A DNA stretch of 31,914 bases, from IMG/VR virus record IMGVR_UViG_3300038441_000845, positions 1 to 31,914 of that record; one strand, given 5' to 3'. Shown here in pieces: positions 5,996-31,666 of the stretch; the stretch's first letter is position 1; each line of letters starts with the position of its first letter. This DNA is from a virus. The notes under the pieces are model-generated. The model ran no database searches. It saw only the letters and a list, made by a program, of their open reading frames with translations, and was not told the origin of the DNA. The translations under genes were made by a program, and so were the position numbers.

Positions 5996-6001
5996 TGTCA
6001 T

Positions 6002-13314: not shown

Positions 13315-13553
13315 GTACGGTGAGCCACGTGAACTACGCGCGGCATGACGCACTACGGGCACTTCGGTTGCACCACTATCAGGCAATGCTGCGGTTGCGC
13401 TCTTATGCCGATGACGCGGACATGCGAAAGAGCGATTCGCAGCACTACAACAAGCGCGCCAACGTGCACTTGGGGTTTGTTCAAACCCTCAACGAGTTCT
13501 TTCCGATTGACGATACAGCAGAGCGAGACAACGACAATGAGCAAGCAATGTAA
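13311..13553 (+). CDS. Hypothetical protein, His/Arg/Asp-rich (80 aa)
   Basis: It starts at ATG 13311 sharing ATGA with the previous stop. The 80-residue product is mainly helical and rich in His, Arg, Tyr and Asp (NYARHDALRALRLHHYQAML, then SDSQHYNKRANVHLGFVQTL). No Cys, signal peptide or membrane segment is seen. No family is recognised. The following gene begins 17 bases before its end in another frame. It is a coupled member of the 12072-14882 operon. Confidence 0.62.
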   Translation: MSTVSHVNYARHDALRALRLHHYQAMLRLRSYADDADMRKSDSQHYNKRANVHLGFVQTLNEFFPIDDTAERDNDNEQAM

Positions 13554-13830
13554 CTGTAACAGTGTTTTCCTCGACAAAGTTAAAGAGCACATCAAGGCAA
13601 AGGCGCCCAATGGCTCTGAGCGCCTTGATATTTCAATGCCGCAAGTGCGGTTTGCTTTTACGGACAAAGGTTTGAAAGACTTGGTTGTTATGGACGTAAA
13701 GGGTGAATACTTCACGCCAAAGAAAGCAGGCGGTTTCAAGCGCGTTAAAGTTGACACTTTCATTTCTGCAAACTATTGCCCGTTCTGCGGCGTATCGCTT
13801 AAGGATGCTGACAATGCAACCAACCTTTAA
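13537..13830 (+). CDS. Small Cys-rich, probable zinc-binding protein (97 aa)
   Basis: ATG 13537 (GACAATG context) is chosen because upstream in-frame starts would give an implausible Cys/Thr/Ser-rich leader that is only the shadow of the previous gene. The product starts MSKQCNCNSVFLDKVKEHI and ends near NYCPFCGVSLKDA. The N-terminal CNC and C-terminal CPFCG could together bind one zinc. The middle (DISMPQVRFAFTDKGLKDLV) has beta character. I have seen similar small phage proteins with a C-terminal CPFCG knuckle, without known function. It overlaps both neighbours, so it is part of the same operon. Confidence 0.66.
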   Translation: MSKQCNCNSVFLDKVKEHIKAKAPNGSERLDISMPQVRFAFTDKGLKDLVVMDVKGEYFTPKKAGGFKRVKVDTFISANYCPFCGVSLKDADNATNL

Positions 13831-14653
13831 ATCCATGCGCCGTGACGGTGCTATCAAACGCGGTGAAGCCAACGCGGTGCGCCTTGAGGACATCCACGAG
13901 GAACCCGGCTTTAACGAGCTGGCGCGTGACTATGATGCTGACGACGAACAGGCCATTGCCGAGCTTGCCGCGTTCATCAAAGCGGGTGGCATCTACCCGG
14001 CGCTTGAAGTGCGCCCGCGTGCTGAGGGTGGTGTCTGGCTGGTTGACGGTCACTTGCGTTCTCGGGCGCTGCGGCTGCTTGATGCTGCTGGCGACCTGCC
14101 GCGCACGCCGAACAAAGAAGACCCGAAAGTGCTTGAGGCTTGGGTGAATGTTACGCCGTTCGTTGGCAATGACGCTGAGCGCATCTTGCGGCTAGATACC
14201 AGCTCGCAACGCAAAGACCCTGGTGACCTGGCGCGCGGCCGCATCTACTCGGCTCTGCTGGCGCACAACTGGACACCTCAACAGATAGCCACGCGCACAG
14301 GCAAGCCGCTTGCAACCATTCAACGCATCCTGACCCTGGCCAGCGGCAACACTGACGTGCACGAAATGGTCAAGGCTGGTGAGGTCAAACCAACCATCGC
14401 AGCGCAGGCGGTGAAGACTCACGGCGACAAGGCCGGGGCGGTGCTCGGTGCCGCTCTTGTTGAGGCCAAGGCGATTGGCAAGACCCGCGTGACCAACGCC
14501 GTGCTCAAACCCAAGCGCATCCCTGAGAGCCTGGTAGAGCGGTTGATTGCAAGCCTGCGCGTGTGCAGTGATACGCACGAGCCTTTGCAAGAAGCGTTGG
14601 ACGCGGCACGTGCGCTACTCAAAGAGATTGAAGAGGTGCGCGGCAATGGCTGA
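13814..14653 (+). CDS. ParB-like nuclease/partition-fold protein with HTH domain
   Basis: ATG 13814 has AAGGA 7 bases upstream and lies inside the end of the previous gene. The 279-residue product contains a ParB N-terminal fold: NAVRLEDIHEEPGFNELARD, an ELAAFIKAGGIYPALEVRP strand, then VWLVDGHLRSRAL, the DGH-x-R-x3-L signature of the ParB/sulfiredoxin superfamily. An HTH follows (WTPQQIATRTGKPLATIQRI), as in KorB/ParB proteins, and then helical C-terminal sequence. In ParB, this fold binds and hydrolyses CTP or acts as a nuclease; in phages it is also found in transcription regulators. No ParA-type ATPase gene is visible, so partition is not supported. A regulatory or DNA-modifying role is more likely here. 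Confidence 0.78.
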   Translation: MQPTFKSMRRDGAIKRGEANAVRLEDIHEEPGFNELARDYDADDEQAIAELAAFIKAGGIYPALEVRPRAEGGVWLVDGHLRSRALRLLDAAGDLPRTPNKEDPKVLEAWVNVTPFVGNDAERILRLDTSSQRKDPGDLARGRIYSALLAHNWTPQQIATRTGKPLATIQRILTLASGNTDVHEMVKAGEVKPTIAAQAVKTHGDKAGAVLGAALVEAKAIGKTRVTNAVLKPKRIPESLVERLIASLRVCSDTHEPLQEALDAARALLKEIEEVRGNG

Positions 14654-14882
14654 GCGCTTCCAGGGCAAGGTGTGCAAGAAGCACCCCGAGCTGCAGGGTG
14701 AGCGCTTTCGCCGCAACCACGCGTGCCCTGAGTGCCAGAACGGGTACACCAAGGAACGCAACCAGCTCATACGCGACAAGGCCAAGAAGTTTGACACCCT
14801 GGCCGCTGCGGTGCGCGACTACCTTGACGACCCTTCAAGCCTGCGAGCCATAGCGCTGCGTCAGATGGTTGAGCCCTCCTAG
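14646..14882 (+). CDS. Small zinc-finger-like protein (78 aa)
   Basis: ATG 14646 overlaps the end of the ParB-like gene by 8 bases. The 78-residue protein begins MAERFQGKVCKKHPELQGER and continues RRNHACPECQNGYTKERNQL, giving a C-x2-H...C-x2-C arrangement typical of a small treble-clef or zinc-ribbon finger. A basic helix follows (ERNQLIRDKAKKFDTLA). It may bind nucleic acid. It is the last gene of the operon starting at 12072, and its stop lies in the loop of the terminator at 14872. No exact family is recognised. Confidence 0.68.
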   Translation: MAERFQGKVCKKHPELQGERFRRNHACPECQNGYTKERNQLIRDKAKKFDTLAAAVRDYLDDPSSLRAIALRQMVEPS

Positions 14883-14894
14883 TGAGGGCTTTTT
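14872..14894 (+). terminator. Intrinsic terminator after the 12072-14882 operon
   Basis: AGCCCTC (14872-14878) pairs with GAGGGCT (14884-14890) around CTAGT, followed by TTTT. The TAG stop of the last gene lies in the loop. The next promoter starts 19 bases after. Confidence 0.88.
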
Positions 14895-14913
14895 ACTATC
14901 CGATGAATGGGCC

Positions 14914-14941
14914 TTGTAGACCGTCAATAATGTACTAGTCT
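14914..14941 (+). promoter_or_regulatory. Weak promoter of the shared family
   Basis: TTGTAG (14914-14919), a 16-base spacer (ACCGTCAATAATGTAC), then TAGTCT (14936-14941). The dyad is degenerate (TAATGTACTA). A CCGGC/GCCGG hairpin (14950-14965) lies in the leader before the ribosome site. Confidence 0.5.
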
Positions 14942-14988
14942 GTTAGTTACCGGCACCTTCGCCGGCTTGATGATAGGGGTACGTGACA

Positions 14989-15507
14989 ATGCGCCTTGAA
15001 CTTGCAACGATCTTTAACCGGATCAACAAAACCCATGTATCTATGGAAACAACCGCAGCTCAGATTATTGAGGTGCTTAAACTTAACGACGTTAACACCC
15101 TGGACAAGCTCAACGAGATTGTTGCAGCAGCGTACGACCGCAACGGCTGGTCAAGCAGGCAAGGGCGCCCGCGCCCCGGCGATGTCTCAGCACCAAGCGC
15201 TGTGCAAGTCTATGTGTCCACGCTGCGTAGGGCGTACCGGATGGGGATCAAGGTACTCAAGCTCAACAGCATTGAAGAGGTGCGCCGGGAGATACGCAAA
15301 GCGAACCGTGGCCATCAGGACGGTGAAGGGCCAAAGGGTGTGCGGCTGACAGCCACCGGCAGCTTTAACGGTGACCTGCGGCATGACATCCTGCTACTTT
15401 GGGAAGTTATCCCGGATGAGGAACGCACAGCGCTTGAGGCATCGGTGCAGCGTCTGTATGACAAGTACGTCAAGAAGGCACCGCCCGCGTTACGACTCGT
15501 AGCCTGA
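14989..15507 (+). CDS. Hypothetical early protein (172 aa)
   Basis: ATG 14989 has AGGGGT upstream and a GTGACAATG context; an in-frame GTG at 14983 is possible but spaced worse. The 172-residue product is helical and basic with VEMETT-like repeats absent: it opens MRLELATIFNRINKTHVSME, has an EVLKLNDVNTLDKLNEIVA helix pair, a basic stretch SSRQGRPRPGD, and later RREIRKANRGHQDGEG. The first half (TTAAQIIEVLKLN) could be an HTH-like unit, but I cannot make the match firm. It is transcribed alone between its own promoter (14914) and terminator (15514), like several genes here. No family is recognised. Confidence 0.66.
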   Translation: MRLELATIFNRINKTHVSMETTAAQIIEVLKLNDVNTLDKLNEIVAAAYDRNGWSSRQGRPRPGDVSAPSAVQVYVSTLRRAYRMGIKVLKLNSIEEVRREIRKANRGHQDGEGPKGVRLTATGSFNGDLRHDILLLWEVIPDEERTALEASVQRLYDKYVKKAPPALRLVA

Positions 15508-15513
15508 TTCACA

Positions 15514-15538
15514 AGCCCCGTTAGCTCGGGGCTTTTTA
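15514..15538 (+). terminator. Intrinsic terminator
   Basis: AGCCCCG (15514-15520) pairs with CGGGGCT (15527-15533) around TTAGCT, followed by TTTTATTTT. A promoter of the shared family begins at 15544. Confidence 0.9.
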
Positions 15539-15543
15539 TTTTG

Positions 15544-15572
15544 TTGACAGGGCATTAATAGCGGTCTATTGT
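15544..15572 (+). promoter_or_regulatory. Sigma70-like promoter with perfect operator-like dyad
   Basis: TTGACA (15544-15549), 17 bases, TATTGT (15567-15572). AATAG-CGGT-CTATT forms a perfect inverted repeat across the -10 edge and TTCGCT follows. This is the strongest member of the family and closely matches the minus-strand copy at 1818. Confidence 0.82.
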
Positions 15573-15607
15573 TCGCTCAACAGAAACGAACAACGGAGCA
15601 AGACGAG

Positions 15608-15838
15608 ATGAACAATTTCAACCGCATGACCATTCGCGAAAACGGCACAGTGTTCTCAGTCTTCAAGATGAAATCTCAGCAGGTCGGCGGCTGGACTACT
15701 GACATGGCGGCAAAGAAGTTTTCTTGGTTTGTCAGTCGAATTGCTGCTCCGCGCTTTACCGGTACTTATGCAGAGTGCACCAGATTTATTGAAAGTGAGG
15801 GAGCTGAGTTCATGAGTGAGCATGGCATAGCCTGCTAA
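15608..15838 (+). CDS. Small hypothetical protein (76 aa)
   Basis: ATG 15608 follows CGGAGC with 9-base spacing and starts after the predicted transcript start (about 15580). The 76-residue product is compact, with MTIRENGTVFSVF and FSWFVSRIAAPRFTGTYAEC suggesting a small alpha/beta fold; a lone Cys is near the end (GIAC). No family is recognised. It is a single-gene transcription unit with its own promoter and terminator. Such short, strongly promoted phage genes often encode host-takeover or anti-defence proteins, but nothing in this sequence identifies the target. Confidence 0.66.
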   Translation: MNNFNRMTIRENGTVFSVFKMKSQQVGGWTTDMAAKKFSWFVSRIAAPRFTGTYAECTRFIESEGAEFMSEHGIAC

Positions 15839-15855
15839 CCAACCCCGCCCACCTC

Positions 15856-15878
15856 AAGCCCCTTAATTGGGGCTTTGC
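15856..15878 (+). terminator. Probable weak intrinsic terminator
   Basis: AAGCCCC (15856-15862) pairs with GGGGCTT (15869-15875) around TTAATT, but only TTTG follows. No promoter is seen before the next gene, so leakage through this stem may feed the 15904-18812 chain. Confidence 0.65.
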
Positions 15879-15903
15879 CAGTACAAAACACGAGGATTTG
15901 ACA

Positions 15904-16245
15904 ATGCAAATTCACAAGCACCCGAATGAAACAGAGGAACAATTCCGCACACGTGCATTCCGCTGGAATCGCCTAGTTGGTGAAGCGTTCGCACGCCGCC
16001 AGGCTCGTTACTCGGCCACCCCGGCAACTGCTGAAAAGCTGCAGACGCGCACCAAGCTGGTTGAGTGCGGGGATCAGTTGTTGGTTGTGCCGGCCGATAC
16101 TGGGGCAACGCGCATCAACGCACCGCTCGGCATGCCTCACCAGCCTGTCAGCCGTATGAGTCGTGTGCGGGCTGCGTGGTACGGCTCGGGGTTGGTTGGC
16201 GCTGTGGCTCTTGTAGCCGTGGCAGTTATGGTTCTGCCGGGATAA
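15904..16245 (+). CDS. Small protein with C-terminal membrane segment (113 aa)
   Basis: ATG 15904 has GAGG 9 bases upstream (TTGACAATG context). Residues 1-85 are polar and basic with a helical start (HKHPNETEEQFRTRAFRWN), and a central stretch with ECGDQLLVVPADTG looks like strands. The last 20 residues (GLVGAVALVAVAVMV) form one strongly hydrophobic segment ending in Pro-Gly, so the protein is probably tail-anchored with the N-terminus in the cytoplasm. No family is recognised. It opens the chain of overlapping small genes up to 18812. Confidence 0.66.
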   Translation: MQIHKHPNETEEQFRTRAFRWNRLVGEAFARRQARYSATPATAEKLQTRTKLVECGDQLLVVPADTGATRINAPLGMPHQPVSRMSRVRAAWYGSGLVGAVALVAVAVMVLPG

Positions 16246-16251
16246 TCTGCC

Positions 16252-16380
16252 GTGGCTAAATTAATTCATGTAGGGCTCATAGTCGGTGCGATGCTCACTG
16301 CACCTGATGTAGTCGACCTTCACCGGTTCTTTATTGGTGCGCTGATTGTGTCTGCGTGCTTTGTGTTTCGGGGTCGCTGA
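16252..16380 (+). CDS. Possible 42-aa membrane protein (GTG start)
   Basis: This 42-residue reading frame fills the gap between its neighbours exactly. It starts at GTG 16252, six bases after the previous stop, and its TGA shares a base with the next ATG (TGATG). The product has two hydrophobic segments, KLIHVGLIVGAMLTA and FFIGALIVSACFVF, joined by a polar PDVVDLHR turn and ending in FRGR, so a small two-pass membrane protein is likely. The ribosome site is weak (GGGATAA). The tight fit supports a real gene. No family is recognised. Confidence 0.5.
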   Translation: MAKLIHVGLIVGAMLTAPDVVDLHRFFIGALIVSACFVFRGR

Positions 16381-16688
16381 TGGCTATGTTCGTGAGCGGT
16401 TCAAAGTACCGCACCCTTGAGTTCAAATTGCTTGCCGCCGAGCTGCAGGTTCAAGATTTGCAGCAGCGGCTCAACGCCAAGATTGAAGAGTGGAACGAGC
16501 TTGTCGGGCGCATCAACCGTCGTGGCGGTGAGAGCTTCCTCACCTACGGGGTAACGATTGATAAGATCCCTGCCCCGCAGTTCACACCGGATGAGTTGAA
16601 GACACTGTTGTTGCTTTGCCATCCAGACAAGCACGGCGGGAAAGACAGCGCGGTGCGCATCACTCAAAAGTTGTTGGAGTTGCGCTGA
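16380..16688 (+). CDS. Coiled-coil protein with J-domain-like HPDK motif (102 aa)
   Basis: ATG 16380 overlaps the previous stop. Residues 12-46 form a heptad-like helix (LEFKLLAAELQVQDLQQRL). Residues 68-102 read TPDELKTLLLLCHPDKHGG and on to ITQKLLELR: a helix, the HPD tripeptide at 81-83, then a Lys/Gly turn and a second helix. This is helix II, the HPD loop and helix III of a DnaJ J-domain, without the first helix. J-domains stimulate DnaK-type ATPases, so the protein might recruit the host DnaK (inference). Similar short HPD proteins occur in other phages as unknowns. A chance HPD is the alternative, but the flanking helices fit. Confidence 0.68.
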   Translation: MAMFVSGSKYRTLEFKLLAAELQVQDLQQRLNAKIEEWNELVGRINRRGGESFLTYGVTIDKIPAPQFTPDELKTLLLLCHPDKHGGKDSAVRITQKLLELR

Positions 16689-17044
16689 TGGCTGTTAAGA
16701 AGACAAACGCGGACTACAAGCGCGAGCAGTACCAGCGCGCCAAAGAAGCCGCCGAAAAGCTGGGGATCATCAACCGCACGTTGCCGCTGCCGGCCAGTGT
16801 GAGCGCTCAACTTGATGAGCTGTGTGAGCGTCACGAGTTCACCGACTGGCGGGAGCTGGTTATCACAATGATTCGGGTTGCCCACGCGGGTGCGGTTGAG
16901 CTGGTTGCTATCCCTTCAAGCGGGTTCGTGCCGAGCGAGAAGCAGTTACGCAAGGTTGGTAAGCGACAAGCCTGTATGTGGTGCGGCGATACGAAATTTA
17001 CAATAACCGGGGATGACTGCCCCGAGTGCGAAGGGGTTGAGTAA
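16688..17044 (+). CDS. Small protein with C-terminal zinc ribbon (118 aa)
   Basis: ATG 16688 shares TGATG with the previous stop. The N-terminus is basic (KKTNADYKREQYQRAKEAA). A middle section, LPLPASVSAQLDELCERHEF followed by WRELVITMI, resembles a ribbon-helix-helix or small helical DNA-binding unit. The end has CMWCGD and CPECEG, a CX2C-CX2C zinc ribbon. DNA-binding is a fair inference but the family is not recognised. It ends with the one-base TAATG-type overlap with the following gene at 17044. It belongs to the coupled chain of small genes. Confidence 0.66.
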   Translation: MAVKKTNADYKREQYQRAKEAAEKLGIINRTLPLPASVSAQLDELCERHEFTDWRELVITMIRVAHAGAVELVAIPSSGFVPSEKQLRKVGKRQACMWCGDTKFTITGDDCPECEGVE

Positions 17045-17247
17045 TGGCAAGGTTTGCAGTTACAGACAACAGCAAGATTGGCGGTGAGCGTGAGGTTTCG
17101 CAACTTGAGGCTGTAACTCCGCGCCTTGAGGATTGCCCCGATGCAATGGGCGAGCTGCTTGACCTCTTGGTTAAAAAGGGTGTTATCGAAATTTACGAGG
17201 CGATTGATATTTCCGGAACTGGTGCATATGAGGGTTACACATCATGA
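17044..17247 (+). CDS. Small acidic hypothetical protein (67 aa)
   Basis: It starts at ATG 17044, on the last base of the previous stop. The 67-residue product is acidic with a single Cys, a central amphipathic helix (AMGELLDLLVKKGVIEIYEA) and a flexible end. No metal motif, signal or membrane segment is seen. No family is recognised. The stop overlaps the next start by 4 bases (ATGA, 17244-17247). Confidence 0.6.
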   Translation: MARFAVTDNSKIGGEREVSQLEAVTPRLEDCPDAMGELLDLLVKKGVIEIYEAIDISGTGAYEGYTS

Positions 17248-17660
17248 AAACTACACGTCACTGGCTGCACATTCTGTTGTGCTTCCCAACCTGCGGGCTT
17301 TGGTTGCCGGTCTATTTGATCCTGCTGGCAACCCGTGAAGAGTACAACCGTGGGCACCGCGTAGGTAAAGCGGCTGGTCGGGTTGAGCGTCAGAACGAGA
17401 TTGACGGCGCTGAGTTTGAGCGTGCCGTGCATGGTCAGCAGGGTTTGGACCCTGTGAAGTTTTACGGCTCTGCAGATGCGCCGCGCACGTTCTCGGGCTT
17501 CGCCAGCACTGCGGACCCTGACCATGTTGCCGATGTTATGCGCCGCACCACTAGCAGAGTTGACCGCTTTGCCGAACTGGCAGACCGCAACCGCACCGTT
17601 GGCTTGGACATGCACGAGCGCGCCGAGTACACCCAACTACGCCAGGAACTGAGCCAATGA
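17244..17660 (+). CDS. Membrane-anchored hypothetical protein (138 aa)
   Basis: ATG 17244 shares ATGA with the preceding stop. Residues 6-29 (WLHILLCFPTCGLWLPVYLI) form a hydrophobic N-terminal segment after a short basic head, a likely membrane anchor. The rest is soluble and charged, with FYGSADAPRTFSG and a C-terminal helix RVDRFAELADRNRTVGLDM. The anchor has two Cys and Pro, so it could also be a short hairpin. No family is recognised. It ends in a 4-base overlap with the coiled-coil gene that follows. Confidence 0.64.
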   Translation: MKTTRHWLHILLCFPTCGLWLPVYLILLATREEYNRGHRVGKAAGRVERQNEIDGAEFERAVHGQQGLDPVKFYGSADAPRTFSGFASTADPDHVADVMRRTTSRVDRFAELADRNRTVGLDMHERAEYTQLRQELSQ

Positions 17661-17950
17661 GTGAAGTTACCCAACTCGCTGCTTTGCGGGAAGAGCTGGC
17701 AAACAGAACGGATCGAGTAGCAGAGCTAGCACAGCAACGTAATGACCTCCAACAGCGCCTTGCGGACGCCGAGCGGCGGAATGGATTACTCGAATCTCAA
17801 GTGCTGCACAAAGATGCCGGTATTGAATTCCGTGACGCGCTGATTAATGCGGTTCGCATGTCGTCTAAAGAACTGTTGATGGCGTGGGTTCCTTCTGACT
17901 GGGAATCTAAGCGCGCCGCCATCAACAAACCCCAAGAGGCCAAGTCATGA
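17657..17950 (+). CDS. Coiled-coil hypothetical protein (97 aa)
   Basis: ATG 17657 shares ATGA with the preceding stop. Residues 5-45 (LAALREELANRTDRVAELAQ, then QRNDLQQRLADAERRNGLLE) show clear heptads and predict a coiled coil, so the protein is probably a dimer. The C-terminal part has SSKELLMAWVPSDWESK, an aromatic-rich short helix. No family is recognised. It is part of the coupled small-gene chain. Confidence 0.64.
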   Translation: MSEVTQLAALREELANRTDRVAELAQQRNDLQQRLADAERRNGLLESQVLHKDAGIEFRDALINAVRMSSKELLMAWVPSDWESKRAAINKPQEAKS

Positions 17951-18309
17951 GCATTGGAACAATCAAACCCCTCGTAACCGCTGATGATGTGCAGGCGCTG
18001 CCGAACGCCGAGCTGCAGCTTGTAGCACGCGCAGCCCTGGCCGCTGGTTACACTGTGGACGTTCGCCACATTCGCTATGAGTATATGGTGTTCGCGAACG
18101 GCAAGCACTTTCACCCGCTCACCAACTGGATGCAGTGCGTGCGCCTGGTGGTTGATACTGACCAAACATTCAGCATTGACGGGCGTATCTCGCTAAAGGT
18201 TGGCGACTCGCAAGAGCATGAGGTACGCAAGCCAACCACCGATGCCGAGTATTACAGCCAGATGTGTGAAGCCGTGGTAACCAACACGGCTAAGGGGTTC
18301 CCGGTTTGA
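17947..18309 (+). CDS. DUF2591-like small phage protein (120 aa)
   Basis: ATG 17947 shares ATGA with the preceding stop. The product has a helical start, ELQLVARAALAAGYTVDVRH, then the segment FANGKHFHPLTNWMQCVRL followed by a conserved-looking VVDTDQTF strand. The F-x-PLTN(W/D)-x2-C-x-RL pattern resembles the DUF2591 family found in many phages and prophages, whose function is unknown. The C-terminus is a short helix ending in Pro-Val. It is the last gene before three RMF-like mini-proteins. Confidence 0.62.
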   Translation: MSIGTIKPLVTADDVQALPNAELQLVARAALAAGYTVDVRHIRYEYMVFANGKHFHPLTNWMQCVRLVVDTDQTFSIDGRISLKVGDSQEHEVRKPTTDAEYYSQMCEAVVTNTAKGFPV

Positions 18310-18479
18310 AGCCACCGCGTGAGTATTACCAAGGTGAGAAAGCCAGGGTTGACGGCGTTGGCAAGCTCACCAATCCCAACGCTTATATGCAGTGGGCCTG
18401 GTCGTGGTGGTTGGCCGGCTGGAACGACAAAGATAAGGAACTGATAGATGCAAAACGAGAAGCCAAGCAACACACGTGA
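18306..18479 (+). CDS. RMF-like mini-protein 1 (57 aa, TTG start)
   Basis: The TTG start at 18306 is supported by AAGGGG 7 bases upstream and by overlap with the previous stop; the only internal ATG would cut off the front half. The product reads MKPPREYYQGEKARVDGVGK, then TNPNAYMQWAWSWWLAGWND and KDKELIDAKRE. The layout G-x2-A-x3-G, NP-x-Y/N, then W-x2-GWNDKD is the pattern of ribosome modulation factor and related small phage proteins. RMF dimerises ribosomes in stationary cells, so a phage version might act on host ribosomes (inference). It is basic and rich in aromatic residues, as expected for RNA or ribosome binding. Below the usual gene-finding length limit. Confidence 0.62.
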   Translation: MKPPREYYQGEKARVDGVGKLTNPNAYMQWAWSWWLAGWNDKDKELIDAKREAKQHT

Positions 18480-18648
18480 GCAATGCGCTTTTGACCGGGG
18501 TGTGTACAACAAAAAGCTTGCAGTTCAAGCGTGCCAAGCAAACCTTGCAAAAGTCGGGGTGGTTGATAAGTGGCGCGAAGTGCACAACCCGCACAAGAAG
18601 GGTTCGGCGGAACACAAGTTTTGGAATGAGGGGTTTGACAGCGTATGA
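18448..18648 (+). CDS. RMF-like mini-protein 2 (66 aa)
   Basis: ATG 18448 has AAGGA 9 bases upstream and overlaps the previous gene by 32 bases. The 66-residue product contains QCAFDRGVYNKKLAVQACQA and later HNPHKKGSAEHKFWNEGFDS. The NP-x(2-3)-GS-x-EH-x-FW-x-GF ending is the core signature of the RMF/CrpP-like small proteins. It is basic. The nearest relatives in the same chain are the genes at 18306 and 18645, and the three look like diverged copies of one gene. Function is inferred from the signature only; a ribosome effect is the leading possibility. Confidence 0.62.
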   Translation: MQNEKPSNTREQCAFDRGVYNKKLAVQACQANLAKVGVVDKWREVHNPHKKGSAEHKFWNEGFDSV

Positions 18649-18812
18649 CACAGACACGGTGGTATCACAGCGGGGCCACGCAGCGCCGCAACGGCAAACC
18701 CTGCGCACCGGCACCAGCCTGCAAAGAATGGGAACGCCGCCAGTGGCAGCAGGGTTGGAACGACAAAGACGAGGCACTTAAGGTAGTTGACAGCCCCACA
18801 CCGGTTGCGTAA
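18645..18812 (+). CDS. RMF-like mini-protein 3 (55 aa)
   Basis: ATG 18645 overlaps the preceding stop by 4 bases (ATGA) and has GAGGGG about 11 bases upstream. The 55-residue product is basic: MTQTRWYHSGATQRRNGKPC, APAPACKEWERRQWQQGWND, then KDEALKVVDSPTPVA. It ends in the GWNDKD signature shared with the 18306 protein. Its last 26 bases overlap the promoter at 18787, so the promoter evolved inside the coding end. Three RMF-like products in a row is unusual. Short enough to be missed by standard gene finders. Confidence 0.6.
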   Translation: MTQTRWYHSGATQRRNGKPCAPAPACKEWERRQWQQGWNDKDEALKVVDSPTPVA

Positions 18813-18815
18813 AGT
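18787..18815 (+). promoter_or_regulatory. Consensus-like sigma70 promoter inside the end of a gene
   Basis: TTGACA (18787-18792), exactly 17 bases, TAAAGT (18810-18815). The -35 is perfect. The transcript would begin near 18822 and meets a strong terminator only about 60 bases later, so it feeds a short RNA, not a gene. Confidence 0.75.
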
Positions 18816-18821
18816 CGCCCG

Positions 18822-18884
18822 TGCATTGTCACTGCTTGGCTGTACCTGAGCCCCGCAAGCCTCCCCAGCTTGCGGGGCTTTTCT
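18822..18884 (+). ncRNA. Possible small RNA (about 60 nt)
   Basis: This is the interval between the promoter at 18787 and the terminator at 18849. The leader is TGCATTGTCACTGCTTGGCT and the rest is the terminator hairpin with an 11-bp perfect stem. It encodes no convincing peptide. The combination of strong promoter and strong terminator around a noncoding stretch is the usual signature of a small RNA. The alternative is a promoter that acts only when the terminator is overridden. The exact 5' end is an estimate. Confidence 0.5.
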
Positions 18885-18885
18885 T
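18849..18885 (+). terminator. Strong intrinsic terminator
   Basis: AGCCCCGCAAG (18849-18859) pairs perfectly with CTTGCGGGGCT (18869-18879) around a 9-base loop, followed by TTTCTTT. It ends the small-gene chain 15904-18812 and the possible small RNA. Confidence 0.92.
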
Positions 18886-19015
18886 TGCGTGGTCTAGTGT
18901 GGCTTCACGTGACTGCATCCAAACCAAGCATGAGGGTGACACCATGTAACCTGACAGCGCGCCGGGGCCTTCCAACAGCGGCAACGCCTATGAGCTTCGA
19001 ATTGGTAGCGACATA
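18886..19015 (+). other. Noncoding interval with no convincing gene
   Basis: The interval begins GCGTGGTCTAGTGTGG, a partial match to the shared promoter family (GTGGTC and a TAGTGT -10 at 18895-18900) but with no good -35. It holds ATGTAA (18944-18949), a start codon directly followed by a stop, preceded by AGGGTG. A 28-codon frame from ATG 18930 to TAA 19016 has no ribosome site and no recognisable product. I see no tRNA, repeat or operator here. Confidence 0.4.
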
Positions 19016-19042
19016 AAAAGCCCTCACAGTTGAGGGCTTTTT
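19016..19042. terminator. Bidirectional terminator
   Basis: AAAAGCCCTCA (19016-19026) pairs with TGAGGGCTTTT (19031-19041) around CAGT. Its T tract overlaps the -35 of the promoter at 19040. Confidence 0.9.
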
Positions 19043-19068
19043 AATGCCCATAATTTGTGGTCTACTGC
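19040..19068 (+). promoter_or_regulatory. Promoter of the shared family, ahead of the hairpin RNA and primase gene
   Basis: TTTAAT (19040-19045), 17 bases, TACTGC (19063-19068). The spacer CCATAATTTGTGGTC matches the other members of the family almost exactly, while the -35 is weak. Transcription would start near 19075, ahead of the hairpin at 19094. Confidence 0.65.
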
Positions 19069-19074
19069 CTGCGC

Positions 19075-19172
19075 CAAGTTCGAATCAATCAGTAAAAAGC
19101 CCGTAGCAATCTGGGCAGGGGTACTGACCCCTGTGAGCTTGGCAGCCATCCAGATTGCTACGGGCTTTTTCG
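19075..19172 (+). ncRNA. Structured leader or small RNA with 21-bp hairpin
   Basis: AAAAAGCCCGTAGCAATCTG plus one G (19094-19114) is the exact reverse complement of 19150-19170, a 21-bp perfect stem ending in TTTTT. Inside it is a second hairpin: CAGGGGT-ACTG-ACCCCTG (19116-19133), followed by a 15-base strand. The 3' T run makes the whole a terminator or attenuator. With the promoter at 19040 the product would be an RNA of about 97 bases, ending 20 bases before the primase start. It could be a regulatory RNA, an attenuator for the primase-helicase gene, or part of the origin. The exact symmetry also gives open reading frames on both strands, which I do not count as genes. Confidence 0.7.
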
Positions 19173-19190
19173 CATATAAGGCAAATGACA

Positions 19191-21812
19191 ATGCTTGCAA
19201 CAGCTTTGGCGGGAATGACCGCCGTAAATCAATGGTTCGTGTGGCGCCTGTCACCGGACCCTAAAAAGCCGGGGAAATACCAAAAGGTGCCGGTGCACCC
19301 TGATGGTCGAATTGAGTTTGATGAACAAGGAAAGCTCAAGGGTATTGACGCCCAAAAGCCGTACGCGTGGACATCATACGAGGTGGCCACGGCTCAACTT
19401 GCTGTGCATATGGGGAGGCTTGACGGTTATGTCTACACGCTCGGTTTTATGGTTACTGCTGGTTGTGGCTACTGGTTCCTTGATGTTGACAGTTGTGTTG
19501 ACTCTGCTGGTGCTCTTTCACCCTGGGCAGCCTGGTTCTACCAAAACCTGCCCGGGGCGTTTTTTGAGTACAGCTCATCCGGCAAGGGCATTCACCTCAT
19601 CGGCCGTGGTTGCCCTGCAGCCGGTCACCGCACCCGACCAACGCAAGAATGGGTAGCCGCCAACCCTGGCGTTGACCTTGAGTTCTATACAGGCGGTCGG
19701 GGTATCGCGTTCGGGTTGAATGGGCAGGCTTGGGGGTCTGCTGATACACACCTATTGGGTCAAACCGAGTACATCGTTGAGCACATCTTTAAGCGTGAGC
19801 AGGGTGTTGCGCTGGCGGTGGGTGACGGACCTCGTGCGGATTGGCGCGGACCTGAGAGCGATGACGAACTGATCAGGCGCGCTCTGCAGTCGCGCAGTGC
19901 CGGTGCCATGTTTGGCGGAAAGGCAACGTTTGCTGACCTGTGGACCTGCAACCTACCGGTGCTGGCTGAGCACTACCCTGACCCCGGCCGCTCAGATGAC
20001 TTGCCGTACGATGGCACCGGGGTTGATTTCGCCCTGGCGTCCCACCTGGCGTTCTGGACGGGCTGCGATGCCGAGCGCATGACGCGGCTTATGTGGCGCT
20101 CAGGGTTGGTGCGCGATAAGTGGACGTCGCACCACACGTACCTATCTGAGCTGACAGTGCTCAACGCCTGCCGCCAGACCCGCAACGTCTGCCAGGACAA
20201 GGAGACAGTAGCCAAGCTTGATGCCTCGGTAACCCTTGAGGCTGGCATGAGCAGGCAGCAATACTTTGACTTGATAATGGCGTGCAACGATGACGCCGAG
20301 CTGCGCAACGATGTGCTGCCGCAGATATCAGGTGACCGTGCGATTGCCGCGCTTGACCGGGATTGGCTGGCCGCTGCAGTAAAGAAGCGCATGAGTGAAT
20401 GGGGGTTCCCGGTTGGCATCAACGACTGCAAGGCTATGGTGCGCCTGCAGGCGGTTGAGGATGAGGACGGCGGGGTTATTCCTGAGTGGGCCAACCGCCA
20501 CGTGTACGTCAAAGCTAACGACTGCTTCTTTAATCTGATGAGCGCCGAAATGATGACGCGCACGTCGTTCAATGCGGACTTTGAGCGCATGATGCCTCAG
20601 AAGCCCAACGGCGACCGTGAGGATGCAGCCAAGTGGTGCTTGCAGCGCTGGAACATGAGCACCGTGGCCAACTACATGTACCTGCCTGGACGTGACCCAA
20701 TTTTCAATCATGAGGGTCGCTGGTACGCAAACCTGTACAGCCCGAGCAGCGTGCCCGAAATCGCCCTTGGTTACACACAGGGTGGGGTTGATGCCATCCA
20801 AGCGTTCTTGCGCCACCTGCAGGCGCTGTGCGGCAACCGGACCGAGGTTTATCTAAACCTGCTTGACTGGATGGCCTGGTGTGCGCAGAACCCTGGCAAG
20901 AAGTGCCGCTATGCACCAATCATCAAGGGTATGCCCGGTGATGGTAAGTCGATGATCATCAATATCATGCAGGCCGTGATGGGCTTTGCGAACGCCACCA
21001 GTGTTGGCGCCAAACTCGTGTGCTCAGATTTCGGTGACTGGCAAGAGGGTTCGTGTGTCACCGCGTTTGAGGAACTGATGATTACCGGTGCCAAGCGCTA
21101 TGCCGTGGCCAACGCCATCAAGGAGCCCATCACCAACAACACGCTCAAGATTAACCGCAAGGGTCAGCCGGCCGGTGCGTCAATCATTAACGTCACTAAC
21201 TACATCGCCTTCACAAACTTTGTGGACGCGGTGCCGCTTGAAGACAATGACCGCCGTTGGTGGGTGATCTTTTCCCCGTTCGATAGCCTGCACAGCCTGG
21301 CAGCAGCGCTGAGCCTTACAGAAGACGGCTTGACCAAACACTACGATTTCATCTTTGACAGTCTGCAGGGTGCGCAGCGTGGCGAGTGGCGCAAGTTCTT
21401 CCTTGAGTATCAGGTGAGCGAGAATTTCAAACCGAACGCCAAAGCACCACACACCAGTGAGAAGGCTGAAATGCAAGCGGGCGGGGAAGACGCTCACGAG
21501 GCCGTGGCGCGTCAATGTATCGAAAGTGGGGCCATCGGTGTAGGCCAGTTCGTTTTAAGCTCCAGCGCGCTAGCAGCGGCTATGAGGACCATATGCGTGC
21601 AGGATGGGATGGACATCCCAAAAACTTCTGCAGTTAGCCACATGCTCACCCGTCTCGGGTTCTCGCCAAAGGGTGTGATCAAGTGGGACGGCAAAGCGCA
21701 CCGTGTGTGGTGGAAGCGTGGCAAGGTGGCGAACGATGACAACGAGACTCTGCGGTCCTTGCTTGAACTCACGAAAATTCAGCACATGGCGCAGCTCACA
21801 GCAACTGGTTAA
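19191..21812 (+). CDS. Primase/polymerase-SF3 helicase replication protein
   Basis: The start is the second ATG of ATGACAATG; AAGG (19178-19181) is 9 bases away. The 873-residue protein has an N-terminal primase-polymerase (AEP-type) domain: LDVDSC with D98 and D100, SSSGKGIHLIG with H135, and an acidic/strand motif DLEFYTGGRGIAFG. The middle is a linker of helical domains. The C-terminal helicase domain carries KGMPGDGKS (Walker A, K586), AFEELM (Walker B near 626-629) and the sensor NYIAFTN, as in SF3/D5-type helicases. This matches the primase-helicase style seen in NrS-1-like and P4-like replication proteins, which recognise repeats at their own origin and open it. The iteron array follows directly. 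Confidence 0.9.
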   Translation: MLATALAGMTAVNQWFVWRLSPDPKKPGKYQKVPVHPDGRIEFDEQGKLKGIDAQKPYAWTSYEVATAQLAVHMGRLDGYVYTLGFMVTAGCGYWFLDVDSCVDSAGALSPWAAWFYQNLPGAFFEYSSSGKGIHLIGRGCPAAGHRTRPTQEWVAANPGVDLEFYTGGRGIAFGLNGQAWGSADTHLLGQTEYIVEHIFKREQGVALAVGDGPRADWRGPESDDELIRRALQSRSAGAMFGGKATFADLWTCNLPVLAEHYPDPGRSDDLPYDGTGVDFALASHLAFWTGCDAERMTRLMWRSGLVRDKWTSHHTYLSELTVLNACRQTRNVCQDKETVAKLDASVTLEAGMSRQQYFDLIMACNDDAELRNDVLPQISGDRAIAALDRDWLAAAVKKRMSEWGFPVGINDCKAMVRLQAVEDEDGGVIPEWANRHVYVKANDCFFNLMSAEMMTRTSFNADFERMMPQKPNGDREDAAKWCLQRWNMSTVANYMYLPGRDPIFNHEGRWYANLYSPSSVPEIALGYTQGGVDAIQAFLRHLQALCGNRTEVYLNLLDWMAWCAQNPGKKCRYAPIIKGMPGDGKSMIINIMQAVMGFANATSVGAKLVCSDFGDWQEGSCVTAFEELMITGAKRYAVANAIKEPITNNTLKINRKGQPAGASIINVTNYIAFTNFVDAVPLEDNDRRWWVIFSPFDSLHSLAAALSLTEDGLTKHYDFIFDSLQGAQRGEWRKFFLEYQVSENFKPNAKAPHTSEKAEMQAGGEDAHEAVARQCIESGAIGVGQFVLSSSALAAAMRTICVQDGMDIPKTSAVSHMLTRLGFSPKGVIKWDGKAHRVWWKRGKVANDDNETLRSLLELTKIQHMAQLTATG

Positions 21813-22126
21813 AATTTGATCAGGTTACGAGGTTACAAGGCTGTTTGAGCTTGTAACCTCACTTGTAACCCTCTGAGAGCCCCGGTTTTACTGGATTTCT
21901 ATCTCTAAAGGTTACAAGTTACAAGATAATTAAAAATCTAGCTGTATGTGAGTTGATAGGTATGTGTATAGGTGGTCATCATGAGTCATGTCGTATGTTC
22001 CGTTTTTATGTGTATTTAAATTTTTTCCACTTGTAACCCGTAACCTTTTCTCTGCAGGCCACGGTTTATAAGGGCTGTAGAGGTTACGAGCTTGTAACCC
22101 TAACTTGTAACCTTTTGGGTGAATTT
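21813..22126. repeat. Iteron array in AT-rich noncoding DNA: candidate replication origin
   Basis: About ten copies of GGTTAC(A/G)AG or its complement CTTGTAACC lie in 290 bases. Plus orientation: 21823, 21831, 21910, 22082, and AGTTACAAG at 21917. Reverse orientation: 21850, 21862, 22030, 22091, 22104, and a partial copy near 22038. Several are in pairs, and GGTTACGAG-CTTGTAACC (22082-22099) abut as a palindrome. Between the two groups lies an AT-rich stretch (about 21926-22028), with runs such as TTTAAATTTTTT. Iterons flanking an AT-rich unwinding region, directly after a primase-helicase gene, is the layout of plasmid and P4-type origins. Other readings are repressor operators or a centromere-like site. 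Confidence 0.8.
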
Positions 22127-22885
22127 ATGAAAAAGAAGAATTTGAGCAAGCTAGAGGCTCTCTTTGTCAAAAAACTCGTTGAGTGTGGCAAACCTGCTGA
22201 TGCGTACCGCGCAGCTTTCAGTTGTGCAGGGCTCTCAGATTTACAGATTTCGTCACGTGCTGGGACTGTGAAGGCTCGCAAGCACGTAAAAGCTGCGCTT
22301 GACGCTGCGAAAAAAACTGTTGAGAAAGAATTGAAATTTGGAATTCAAGACATCGTTGAGATTTGGACGGACATTGCTACCGCTGATCCTAACGAGTTGA
22401 TGAGCAATTTGCGGCGGTGCTGCCGCCACTGCTACGGCCGTGGTCACCATTACCAGTGGAAGGACGAGAACGAATTTGCCTATGCGCTCGGCCAGGCTCT
22501 CAAGGCCAAGGGTAAGCAGACCATCCCGAGCGATGAGGGCGGCTATGGGTTCAACTTCACGTTTCGGCCGCACCCTGAGTGCACCGAGTGCAAAGGTGAG
22601 GGCCACCTTGATACGTTCTTTGCTGACACCCGGAAATTGAGCAGGGCAGGGCGCCGGCTGTACGCTGGTGTCAAGCAGACCGCTCAGGGCATGCAGGTTA
22701 TGACGCGCGACCAAGATGCAGCGCTTGCCAACCTGGCCAAGTTCTTTGGAATGATGCCTGACAAATTGCAGGTTGCAGGGGCTGACGGTGGACCGTTATT
22801 AAGTGCTACTATGCCACTGCCCACCGACCCGGTGGAAGCTGCGAACCTTTACGCGCAGTTCATTAAAAGCAACGCAAGGGGATGA
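22127..22885 (+). CDS. terS: Terminase small subunit with zinc-finger insertion
   Basis: ATG 22127 has GGGTGA six bases upstream; the in-frame TTG at 22115 is less likely. The 252-residue product begins with the terminase_2-type HTH region: LSKLEALFVKKLVECGKPAD, AYRAAFSCAG and a helix to about residue 60. Then comes KFGIQDIVEIWTDIATADP. An inserted region has CRHCYGRGH and CTECKGEGH, two CX2CXGXG motifs of the DnaJ zinc-finger type, with QWKDENEFAYALGQALKAKG between them. The C-terminus ends with the helix VEAANLYAQFIKSNA. The protein would recognise the packaging site and hand DNA to TerL. It directly follows the iteron array, so the repeats could alternatively be its packaging (pac) site. 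Confidence 0.85.
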   Translation: MKKKNLSKLEALFVKKLVECGKPADAYRAAFSCAGLSDLQISSRAGTVKARKHVKAALDAAKKTVEKELKFGIQDIVEIWTDIATADPNELMSNLRRCCRHCYGRGHHYQWKDENEFAYALGQALKAKGKQTIPSDEGGYGFNFTFRPHPECTECKGEGHLDTFFADTRKLSRAGRRLYAGVKQTAQGMQVMTRDQDAALANLAKFFGMMPDKLQVAGADGGPLLSATMPLPTDPVEAANLYAQFIKSNARG

Positions 22886-22887
22886 CA

Positions 22888-23355
22888 ATGCAAAAGTACA
22901 CAGTGAACGAGAACCCGCACTGCCCCGAAGGCACAAGCGACGAAATATCGCAATACCTGCCAGCGGGAACCGTGCTCTATGCGGCTGCGGGCGTTGATGC
23001 TGAGATTGAATCGCTCAAGTTGATGAGCGTGGCAAACGTTCTGTTGGATGCAACGTTGGGTGATGACAGCTTTCAGAGCGCGCAAGCAAAATCTGTCGAT
23101 GAGGTAAACGATAGGCTGAGGGGGTTAGAGGATCTGGTGGCAACATTGGAGGGTGAGCTTGCTGAGGCTAACGCGCAGCTAACAGAGCGCAACCGCGAGT
23201 TTGGCAAAGTGTCGTCTGAGGCTATCACCCTGCGCGATGTGCTGGCCTTGTTGGCGCCTGACCTCAAAGCAATGGCAATCCTGTACGCGCAGAAGGGCGA
23301 CCACCAACGCAGCCAGGCGCTCAACAACATTTGCAAATCTGTTGGGGTGGTGTGA
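22888..23355 (+). CDS. Coiled-coil hypothetical protein (155 aa)
   Basis: ATG 22888 is chosen because AAGGGG (22876-22881) is 6 bases upstream; the first ATG of the ATGACAATG (22882) would leave no gap. Residues 1-45 are a small folded start (CPEGTSDEISQYLPAGTVLY), and residues 70-110 form a long coiled coil (LRGLEDLVATLEGELAEANA). The end (AILYAQKGDHQRSQALNNIC) is helical. No family is recognised. It lies between the two terminase genes and is coupled on both sides (ATGA with terS, TGATG with the next gene). Confidence 0.64.
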   Translation: MQKYTVNENPHCPEGTSDEISQYLPAGTVLYAAAGVDAEIESLKLMSVANVLLDATLGDDSFQSAQAKSVDEVNDRLRGLEDLVATLEGELAEANAQLTERNREFGKVSSEAITLRDVLALLAPDLKAMAILYAQKGDHQRSQALNNICKSVGVV

Positions 23356-23585
23356 TGGCTCGACAACTGGACCACCTCAACTATGAGGATGACGGTTTTA
23401 AAACGCTGCAAGACGCTATTGAATTCTGCAAAGGCCGCTCGGGCATCACACGCGCATGGATTGGTAAGCGTGAGCGGTTCCACGTGTTTGTTGCGGCCAT
23501 TGAACACCATCGGCGTTTTTACCATGTCGTTGCTGATTATGTGATGCACCCGACAATCACGTATCGAGAAGAGGCCGACCAATGA
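23355..23585 (+). CDS. Small hypothetical protein (76 aa)
   Basis: ATG 23355 overlaps the preceding stop (TGATG). The 76-residue product has alternating helix and strand (DGFKTLQDAIEFCKGRSGIT) and a segment RFHVFVAAIEHHRRFYHVVA of beta character. It is basic and His-rich. No family is recognised. It ends in an ATGA overlap (23582-23585) with the next gene. Confidence 0.6.
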   Translation: MARQLDHLNYEDDGFKTLQDAIEFCKGRSGITRAWIGKRERFHVFVAAIEHHRRFYHVVADYVMHPTITYREEADQ

Positions 23586-23857
23586 ACAACGATGAGCGCA
23601 AAGACGTTGAGTATCTGAAAGAGCTGTTGGCGTCTGTCAAGGTTCCAACCCTGTGCGGTTCTTGCGGTGCGAACCTTGACTATCACCAATGCTTTTGTGC
23701 TGGTAAGCAGCAACCACTGCACCGTGACAATGACGGCCTTGATGCGTACCGTGAGCCCGTGGCCATCGCTCACGTTTGCGAGCTTGGTGAGAACTGCCGG
23801 TGCGTTAAGGGTGATGAGCCTGGTTGCTGGAACTGGATAGAGAAGGTGGAGTTATGA
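23582..23857 (+). CDS. Small Cys-rich protein (91 aa)
   Basis: ATG 23582 shares ATGA with the preceding stop. The 91-residue product has eight Cys: LCGSCGAN, then QCFC and AHVCELGENCRCVKG, and a final C in EPGCWNW. A zinc-binding knuckle is likely. The start is acidic and helical (DERKDVEYLKELLASV). No family is recognised. Its stop overlaps the next start by 4 bases (23854-23857). Confidence 0.62.
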   Translation: MNNDERKDVEYLKELLASVKVPTLCGSCGANLDYHQCFCAGKQQPLHRDNDGLDAYREPVAIAHVCELGENCRCVKGDEPGCWNWIEKVEL

Positions 23858-23961
23858 GACGTCTATCATTCAACATCGTTGCTGTTATTCAGCGTGCGCA
23901 TATGCTGATTGTCGTCACGCGAATTCGTGACGTTCCTATCACGCCAGGTGACTTGCGATGA
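23854..23961 (+). CDS. Possible 35-aa hypothetical protein
   Basis: The 36-codon frame starts at ATG 23854 in ATGA with the preceding stop and ends in ATGA with the next gene. The product MRRLSFNIVAVIQRAHMLIV continues VTRIRDVPITPGDLR. The hydrophobic stretch is amphipathic and broken by Arg/His, so a full membrane segment is doubtful. Its existence rests on the perfect overlaps on both sides. No family is recognised. Confidence 0.45.
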   Translation: MRRLSFNIVAVIQRAHMLIVVTRIRDVPITPGDLR

Positions 23962-24080
23962 TAACCATTGCTGCGTATTTGGTTCTTGACATGACTGTTG
24001 CCAATTGGAGCGGTTGGCTATTGGTTCTGCCGGTGCTATTGGACCTGGCGATAATCGGCAGCATTGCTAAGGATCGCTGA
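23958..24080 (+). CDS. Possible 40-aa membrane protein
   Basis: The 41-codon frame starts at ATG 23958 in ATGA with the preceding stop, and its TGA shares a base with the terL ATG (TGATG). The product has the segment ITIAAYLVLDMTVAN and then WLLVLPVLLDLAIIGSI, one or two membrane passes, ending KDR. Tight overlap with terL suggests translational coupling. No family is recognised. Confidence 0.5.
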   Translation: MITIAAYLVLDMTVANWSGWLLVLPVLLDLAIIGSIAKDR

Positions 24081-25669
24081 TGGATTGGAAGCAGCCCGAT
24101 TACCGGGGCATCCTGCAAGAGCGGCTAGACAACCTGGCCGCTATTCGCAAGAAGCCTGAAATCATCCCCGCGCTAAAGCTGCACTATCGCGAGAACCCTG
24201 CCGACTTTATCAGTGATTGGGGCATTACTTATGACCCCCGGTTGATTGAGCGCGGGCTTTCGCCGGTCGTGCCAATGATCCTATTCCCAAAGCAGCTTGA
24301 TTTTATTGAGTGGGTGCTTGAGCGCTGGCGAGCCGGTGAGTCTGGCGTTGCACCCAAGTCGCGGGACATGGGTTTATCGGTGGTCTGTCAGCAGCTCGGT
24401 GCAACGCTGTGCTTGATGCGCAACAACATGAGCATCGGCTACGGCTCACGCAAGGAGGACTTGGTAGACAAGGTGGGCGACCCGTCAACCCTCTTCTATA
24501 AAGGGCGGATGTTTATCGACCACTTGCCCGAGGAATTCCGGGGCGGTTTCAAGTCGACCAACAAGGACCACTCAAGCCACCTGAAAATCTACATTCCCGA
24601 AACGCAGAGCATCATGATTGGTGAGGCTGGTGACAACATCGGTCGGGGTGGTCGTACCGCCCTGTTCTTTGACGATGAATCAGCCTTTCAGCCGCGCCCG
24701 CAACTCATTGACGCTGCATTGTCAGCAACGACCAACTGCCGAATATCTGTCAGCTCTGTGAACGGCCGCGACAACCCGTTTGCTGACAAGGTGCACAACT
24801 GGCCTGAGCGCCGGGTGTTTCGCTTCCACTGGCGAGACGACCCGCGCAAGGATGACGAGTGGTACGCCAAGAAGTGTGAGGACTTGGACAACCCAATCAT
24901 CATTGCGCAAGAAATTGACCTCAACTTCACAGCGTCCAAGTCGGGGATTCTCATCCCTAGCGAGTGGGTGCAGGCTGCAGTCAATGCGCACATCAAGCTT
25001 GGCATCAAGCCAACCGGTGAGCGACGTGGTGCGCTTGACGTTGCTGACGAGGGTATTGACCTCAACGCCTTTGGCTGGCGACACGGCGTGGTCATGCAGG
25101 GCATTGAAGCCTGGTCGGGCGTTGGGTCTGACACGTTTGCCACGGCTGCGCGCGCCTTTAACCTTGCCGACGCTAACCATTTAAACGATTGGGACTTTGA
25201 CAGTGACGGCTTGGGTGCTGGCATTCGCGGTGACGCCAGGGTACTCAACGAGAAGCGCGCCAAGAACAAGCAGAAGGTGAGTCCTTTCCGGGGCTCGGGT
25301 GCGGTCATTGACGCAGAGAAAGAAATCATCAAGGGTGAGCATGGTGTGAAGGGTCGCACCAACGAGGATTTCTTTGCGAACCGTAAAGCGCAAGAATGGT
25401 GGCGCCTGATGACTCGCTTCAAGCTCACCTATCGCGCCGTTGTCCAGGGGCTGCCGTACGACCCTGACGAAATTATCAGCCTTGATAAAGACGCGATGGA
25501 AAAGAAAGCGTTTGATAAGTTGTGCCAGGAACTCAGCCAACCAACATGGATGCAGAACGGTAGTGGTAAGATCCTGATTGACAAGGCGCCGCAGGGCTCA
25601 CGCTCGCCAAACTATGCTGACGCCTGCATGATTCTATATTCCAAGCGGGCACGCCGCTCAGGCTTCTAA
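24080..25669 (+). CDS. terL: Terminase large subunit
   Basis: This 529-residue packaging motor has an N-terminal ATPase and C-terminal nuclease. The Walker A loop is the atypical form APKSRDMGLSVV (Lys early, then R-x-MG-x-S), seen in several terminase groups, followed by QLGATLCLMRNNMSIGYGSR. Walker B is TALFFDDESAF with D-E, and SSVNGRDNPF follows. The nuclease domain begins ALDVADEGIDLNAFGW with the first acidic residues, then FDSDGLGAGIR, and ends RSPNYADACMILY. It translocates DNA into the procapsid and cuts it. It starts right after the tiny membrane gene and is followed by the portal gene 11 bases later. Confidence 0.93.
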   Translation: MDWKQPDYRGILQERLDNLAAIRKKPEIIPALKLHYRENPADFISDWGITYDPRLIERGLSPVVPMILFPKQLDFIEWVLERWRAGESGVAPKSRDMGLSVVCQQLGATLCLMRNNMSIGYGSRKEDLVDKVGDPSTLFYKGRMFIDHLPEEFRGGFKSTNKDHSSHLKIYIPETQSIMIGEAGDNIGRGGRTALFFDDESAFQPRPQLIDAALSATTNCRISVSSVNGRDNPFADKVHNWPERRVFRFHWRDDPRKDDEWYAKKCEDLDNPIIIAQEIDLNFTASKSGILIPSEWVQAAVNAHIKLGIKPTGERRGALDVADEGIDLNAFGWRHGVVMQGIEAWSGVGSDTFATAARAFNLADANHLNDWDFDSDGLGAGIRGDARVLNEKRAKNKQKVSPFRGSGAVIDAEKEIIKGEHGVKGRTNEDFFANRKAQEWWRLMTRFKLTYRAVVQGLPYDPDEIISLDKDAMEKKAFDKLCQELSQPTWMQNGSGKILIDKAPQGSRSPNYADACMILYSKRARRSGF

Positions 25670-25680
25670 GAGGGTTCACC

Positions 25681-30048: not shown

Positions 30049-30062
30049 GGGACGCCGCGAAC

Positions 30063-31178: not shown

Positions 31179-31187
31179 CAAATCGTC

Positions 31188-31213: not shown

Positions 31214-31238
31214 ACTTCAATAACAGCAGGGCTTTGAC

Positions 31239-31655: not shown

Positions 31656-31666
31656 GGTGTCTCATC

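Follow-up and report, generated by a model that had tools for sequence, protein, structure and literature searches.

What is a long hairpin doing between a promoter-like sequence and the primase gene of this virus? In the window, that is, the whole 31,914-nt stretch of viral DNA that we analyzed, the first-pass annotation had described a perfect 21-bp inverted repeat that holds a second hairpin, ends in five T and lies between a promoter and the primase start, and had offered an attenuator, a stable regulatory RNA or an origin element as its possible roles. Our analysis confirmed both hairpins as described (long stem S1 and inner hairpin H in Table 1), together with the five T at the stem end. 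The hairpin does lie between a promoter-like word and the primase start, which may be either 19185 or 19191 in the same frame, and the AAGG of the primase gene starts 7 bases 3′ of the stem end. The annotated extent, 19075-19172, holds as a location, while the conserved RNA is predicted to start slightly further upstream, at G19073. Of the seven inverted repeats in the window with arms of at least 16 nt within 120 nt, only this one is perfect. A second long inverted repeat, with 19-nt arms that are 95% complementary, is found at 10608-10662 within the ORF 9966-10964. When folded as RNA, the 131 nt between 19060 and 19190 reached −61.2 kcal/mol, whereas shuffled versions averaged −36.4 (z = −6.93); none of 200 shuffles was as low. 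The loop of S1 also contains a 16-nt strand (19134-19149) between H and the 3′ arm.

Table 1. Features of the leader and its surroundings (window coordinates).
Feature	Position	Strand	Basis or remark
Intrinsic terminator of the preceding unit	18848..18880	+	Terminator scan
Second terminator-like hairpin, GCCCTCACAGTTGAGGGC-TTTTT, A run on 5′ side, immediately before the promoter	19016..19044	.	Sequence; d = 29.1
Promoter-like word ATTTGTGGTCTACT, extended −10 (TG 19058-59, TCTACT 19061-66)	19053..19066	+	Predicted
Element A, GCCAAGTTC	19073..19081	+	Invariant 12/12; predicted +1 = G19073
Element B, TCAGT, complementary to L	19089..19093	+	CCAGT in one member (L026)
5′ arm of long stem S1	19094..19114	+	Inverted repeat, covariation
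Inner hairpin H, 6 bp (19116-19121/19128-19133)	19116..19133	+	Covariation: 3/6 pairs doubly changed, 100% paired
Loop element L, ACTGA	19123..19127	+	Invariant 12/12
Element A′, GAGCTTGGC plus AGC	19135..19146	+	9-bp complementarity to A
3′ arm of S1 with a paired, U-rich end	19150..19170	+	Inverted repeat, covariation, A-U/U-A counts
Shine-Dalgarno-like AAGG of the primase gene	19178..19181	+	Sequence; conserved in relatives
Primase-polymerase-helicase gene, NrS-1 HBD domain and DUF5906	19185..21812	+	ORF, domain search

Relatives were sought in viral contigs with the primase and with sequence patterns. This yielded 12 distinct full copies, namely those of the window, L003, L004, L005, L006, L007, L009, L010, L011, L026 (the same as L035), L036 and L043, and a partial copy in L008. 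The elements of L006, L009, L010 and L011 hardly differ, so the copies represent closer to eight or nine independent lineages. A covariance model matched 12 of the 24 records searched, at one place per record, although it was built from the 12 alignment rows and their matches hold by construction. With this model the RNA was found neither in the more distant primase relatives L046-L051 and L055 nor in the phages Psp6, Silvanus, Scuro, SppYZU01 and PEi21 (0 of these 12 records), nor was there a match at the L052-L054 loci. Among the pattern matches, those in L013, L017, L019, L024, L027, L033 and L034 were discarded for having no stem, as judged by eye, and those in L060, L104 and L137 had just 9-pair chance stems. 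Just before position 6001, L046 and L047 carry the promoter word together with a leader that opens with GCCAACGATCC..., in which GCCAA is kept at the start and the hairpin is absent; given these two records, the RNA may have been gained or lost within the same leader. The element lies directly before the primase gene in ten of the 12 members, while one extra gene intervenes in the other two (L003:4535-5001 and L005:2190-2642). Its protein contains MLIISATGHRPDKLGG / MIIAATGHRPDKLGG, and in both records an AAGG..ATGACAATG start context is repeated before the extra gene and the primase.

Covariation in related phages, which the first-pass annotation had named as a test, strongly supported the structure. 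In the 12-row alignment (A3) the 27 pairs of S1 and H make up 323 cells, 99.4% of which hold standard pairs; 18 of the 27 pairs have double compensatory changes, in 52 cells altogether. None of 500 shuffles matched the observed covariation on any measure, pairing fell to 30-50% in a sliding partner control, and RNAalifold recovered S1 and H unaided, plus small extensions. The two unpaired cells both fall on column pair 51/97, in L036 and L043, where we think that the alignment misplaces the bulged (or longer) stem tops. With G-U counted, the stem has 21-22 pairs in ten members and 25 in L043, whereas L036 has 19 continuous pairs and then a bulge. The arms have a mean pairwise identity of ~70%. 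A mobile element was discarded, as each record has the RNA at one place and in the same context, with stems diverged by compensation; a tRNA search found none.

The wobble pairs tell which strand is selected. Read in the primase sense, S1 and H have 11 G-U cells, which represent five distinct column/type cases, as against 0 A-C cells; this argues that selection acts on the plus-strand RNA. Such a pattern would be unexpected for a double-stranded DNA palindrome and, taken alone, would still be compatible with an ssDNA hairpin of one strand. Full-length copies scored 99-124 bits with the covariance model on the plus strand vs. 29-41 on the minus strand. An RNA of the minus strand was discarded on these scores, on the lack of A-C wobbles, and on the consensus scan, which lists no minus-strand promoter-like site in 13000-31914 and which also missed the plus-strand promoter word. 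Judged from the alignment, the element is a conserved structured plus-strand RNA and no chance palindrome.

A different kind of repeat lies on the other side of the primase gene. Right after the primase stop, the region 21813-22115 is non-coding and AT-rich and contains 8 copies of GTTACAAG on either strand. Such an array lies 3′ of the primase in all 12 members, with 5-8 copies of an 8-mer that is common to the copies within each record and differs between records: GTCCCAAG in L005, L006 and L011, GTCACAAG in L007, GTTACAGG in L009, GGTAACAG in L010 and CATACAAG in L036. A concerted iteron array next to a replication gene is the usual picture of an initiator-bound origin, and from its sequence the array at 21813-22115 is likely the replication origin. 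Iteron specificity would then switch between close relatives, perhaps together with the primase-helicase. The array directly downstream of the primase makes an origin role of the hairpin unlikely. It also bears on the proposal of a DNA element, either a hairpin or inverted recognition sites, that would serve the NrS-1-like primase-polymerase as part of a replication origin. The NrS-1 polymerase requires an 8-nt template sequence, once per strand (PMC7102993), and here A and A′ form inverted copies beside such a polymerase gene. Nevertheless, the wobbles are all G-U and on one strand only, the 5′ end of the element coincides with the predicted transcription start and the AT-rich, origin-like array sits just 3′ of the gene in every member, so we consider this proposal most improbable.

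As for the 5′ end, a word resembling ATTTGTGGTCTACT is present in 11 of the 12 members, being degenerate in L026, and it recurs in relatives, often 3′ of terminators. Element A starts 6-7 bases 3′ of the −10 word (TCTACT/TTTACT/GACACT) in all 12, and this is the usual distance from a −10 element to +1. We infer that transcription starts at G19073, so that A would be the 5′ end of the RNA. The promoter and the start site are treated as predictions here, given a weak −35 region that lacks conservation (L011) and the absence of the ATTTGTGGTCTACT promoter from the listing of the sigma-70 consensus scan. Further upstream, 18942-18990 includes a piece of 37-49 bases that is 86-97% identical to a stretch in the Pseudomonas syringae phages Medea1, phiPSA1, psageB2, psageK9, PSA-2T, Orimi01 and Orisa01-03. 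No feature is annotated at the counterpart in the first five phages; in the Ori phages a hypothetical protein covers it. A terminator-like hairpin follows the piece in the window, Medea1 and phiPSA1. This arrangement suggests a further small RNA, flanked by a promoter-like word on one side and its terminator on the other.

The predicted 3′ end of the RNA resembles that of a terminator. The first-pass annotation had noted a stem length well beyond the needs of a terminator, and this applies to all 12 records: S1 has 19-25 continuous pairs vs. 8-13 in the strongest other terminators of the scan. The five bottom pairs, however, comprise 50 A-U, 0 U-A, 7 G-C/C-G and 3 G-U, with A never on the 3′ strand, whereas the remainder of S1 flips freely (35 A-U, 33 U-A). 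This bias indicates that U is retained on the 3′ side, in terminator-like fashion, and makes a terminator role possible despite the length of the stem. The T run described by the annotation is itself paired, and where a U is lost its partner has changed as well (AGAAA/TTTCT, AAAAC/GTTTT); the stem-end helix appears to be important, and so does the U run. In the seven members with an interrupted U run (TTTCT, GTTTT), the sequences look as if the kept feature is the helix and not the U run. A terminator score was positive in all 12 members (3.8-44.1), with the 3.8 in four of those with an interrupted U run, and it ranged from 24.0 to 51.1 in 24 other terminators. The GC-rich stem and U run of an intrinsic terminator are thus found throughout the family, weakly (3.8) in four members.

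An ordinary bidirectional terminator that merely insulates two units would account for the A run and U run flanking the stem, and similar terminators lie just upstream. It would, though, separate the nearest promoter-like site from its primase, and it would explain neither a stem so much longer than those of the scan's strongest other terminators nor the invariant words outside the stem and the covarying internal hairpin; we regard it as very improbable.

The words outside S1 and H behave differently from the stems. Apart from the invariant A and L, mean pairwise identity is 98.6% for A′ plus AGC and 96.7% for B. A and A′ are complementary over 9 bp in all 12 members, without compensatory change: eight of the nine pairs never vary and one shows a one-sided change. 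The A:A′ pairing is therefore a prediction, and the two words could be protein sites instead. The 5 bp between B and L can form in 11 of the 12 members, with a mismatch in L026 and a sixth pair broken in L036 and L043; in our reading of the nascent folds of the latter two, the B:L helix is shifted, with 6 and 7 bp. A coding leader or peptide attenuator was rejected, as frame 0 (AKF..ISKKPV...) is open in only six of the 12 members.

Fold predictions outlined two successive structures, using a program that models neither pseudoknots nor kinetics. With the RNA cut before the last arm, A:A′ had a probability of at least 0.88 at every pair in 12/12 members, and B:L was part of the nascent minimum-energy fold in seven (L006, L007, L009, L010, L011, L036 and L043). 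With the last arm present, S1 plus H was the nested minimum-energy fold in all 12. Among 20000 mononucleotide shuffles, 15 produced an A:A′ helix of at least 9 bp with a nested second helix of at least 5 bp; by itself, a 9-bp helix is no rarity (809/20000, or 352/20000 with a shorter 5′ piece). A:A′ and S1 cross in pseudoknot order, and the linker is constant at 11-12 nt. Geometrically, the two would coexist only if this linker spanned the 21-25 bp stem near full stretch, and by the same reasoning B:L would be incompatible with the full stem. By pairing rules A:A′ leaves the S1 bases free, so it would be no classical antiterminator and would have to act by trapping.

The same stem and clamp could instead serve the maturation of the messenger. 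With its two helical turns, the stem would then be a substrate of RNase III, and A:A′ would shield the 5′ end from 5′-dependent decay, which would set the stability of the primase messenger with no stop of transcription. An RNase III site is about two turns of near-perfect duplex, and the continuous pairs of S1 provide this in 12/12 members. Consistent with this, the stem stays at about two turns while its sequence drifts freely, compensation reaches into its A-U base and the predicted 5′ end is flush with the A:A′ helix. Still, maturation does not account for the constancy of the words A, B, L and A′, nor for U being kept on just one side of the stem end, and we consider it rather unlikely. 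Invariant exposed words and a terminator-like end would also suit a small RNA that ends at the stem and acts in trans, binding a host or phage target through A′/L (or A/B), with the primase reached by read-through or from other promoters; the unit before it also resembles a small RNA, one common to other Pseudomonas phages. Yet there are just 98 nt from the predicted start to the stem end, the RNA always sits directly before the ribosome site of the replication operon and no target for the exposed words was identified, all of which makes a role in trans improbable.

We favor, at a probability of roughly 45%, a structured 5′-leader RNA of the NrS-1-type primase-polymerase operon, ~98 nt long from G19073 to U19170, that would act as a transcription attenuator. 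This reading is preferred as it fits the position, the start, the end, the folding order and the invariance of the RNA. Of the roles offered at the outset, a functional RNA is thus supported by covariation, an attenuator is its best fit on present sequence evidence and an origin is disfavored by the wobbles and the iterons. In the attenuator, transcription would start at G19073 and put A at the 5′ end of the RNA. While the last arm is untranscribed, A would pair with A′ (and B could pair with L), and the 5′ arm of S1 would be held inside a closed loop. Once the 3′ arm emerges, S1 and H would take over as a terminator-like hairpin that ends in U and lies 7 bases 5′ of the ribosome site. The lifetime of A:A′ would choose between read-through to the primase and premature termination, and the balance might be set by whatever binds A, A′, B or L, be it a protein of the phage or the host or another copy of the RNA. 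A more specific and doubtful form of the model is a new kind of two-state, pseudoknot-capable switch in which the 5′-terminal A:A′ clamp, helped by B:L, would block the 5′ arm of the terminator topologically and not by base competition. The block would last until the 11-12 nt linker stretches along the two-turn helix or a ligand releases the clamp, and the switch would time the expression of the primase-polymerase.

The attenuator can be compared with known leaders. In the rep leaders of pT181 and pIP501, an antisense RNA acts as the trigger, and the pre-emptor base-pairs with the 5′ arm of the terminator itself (PMC5703833). Our RNA likewise forms a structured leader immediately before a replication-initiation gene, with a terminator-like stem by the start codon, and the predicted A:A′ may be a counterpart of their competing pairing. 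Unlike in those leaders, A:A′ would here enclose the arm, and we found no sequence relation. As to an antisense trigger, the consensus scan that missed the plus-strand promoter word listed no minus-strand promoter-like site in 13000-31914. The proposed mechanism thus resembles rep-leader attenuation by analogy, with no claim of membership.

A long co-directional operon runs from the primase to the head genes, and the RNA could instead resemble put of HK022, binding RNA polymerase as it emerges after the promoter so that pauses and terminators are ignored across that operon. It begins at the predicted +1, occurs at one place per record, is strongly folded and has invariant unpaired words. As with put, a phage transcript would fold immediately 3′ of its promoter. 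However, put is an RNA of ~70 nt with two stem-loops that have indents and bulges (PMC9378689), while ours has one long stem holding an inner hairpin, with a possible crossing A:A′ and no side-by-side stem-loops. Moreover, the consensus scan of 19.2-31.9 kb lists weak terminator-like sites only, which leaves little to suppress, and the terminator-like end would go unexplained. We find a put-like action unlikely.

Two further comparisons concern helix order and position. HDV-like ribozymes have the helix strand order P1-P2-P3-P1′-P2′, a P4 and a short P3. If A:A′, S1 and H coexist, our RNA would have the same strand order; unlike those ribozymes, it would have no upstream substrate if +1 is G19073, P4 and the short P3 are absent, and the Rfam HDV models gave no match at gathering or at E ≤ 10. 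The P4 CI and P1 c4 RNAs are immunity leaders of a primase-helicase operon with complementary words, a feature that our RNA shares. Its words, in contrast, are identical in all members, contrary to an immunity-specificity system. This type of immunity was discarded, and no integrase (PF00589) or HTH_3 repressor (PF01381) was found in the eight records searched.

Rfam 15 gave 0 matches at gathering in the window, and the 16 sub-threshold matches were all below the gathering score. A search of 50,697 phage and 72,556 plasmid records returned no relevant match to the element, only unrelated or chance ones, and literature searches found no publication on this RNA. It appears to be a previously undescribed phage RNA family with strong covariation support.

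To our knowledge, gene control has not been worked out in phages with an NrS-1-type primase-polymerase, and this RNA is placed where it could control their switch into DNA replication. If A:A′ does trap the terminator arm in a loop, the attenuator would be of unusual design, and the family alignment and the covariance model make the reading testable. The RNA is probably a switch that decides whether the gene for copying the DNA is on.
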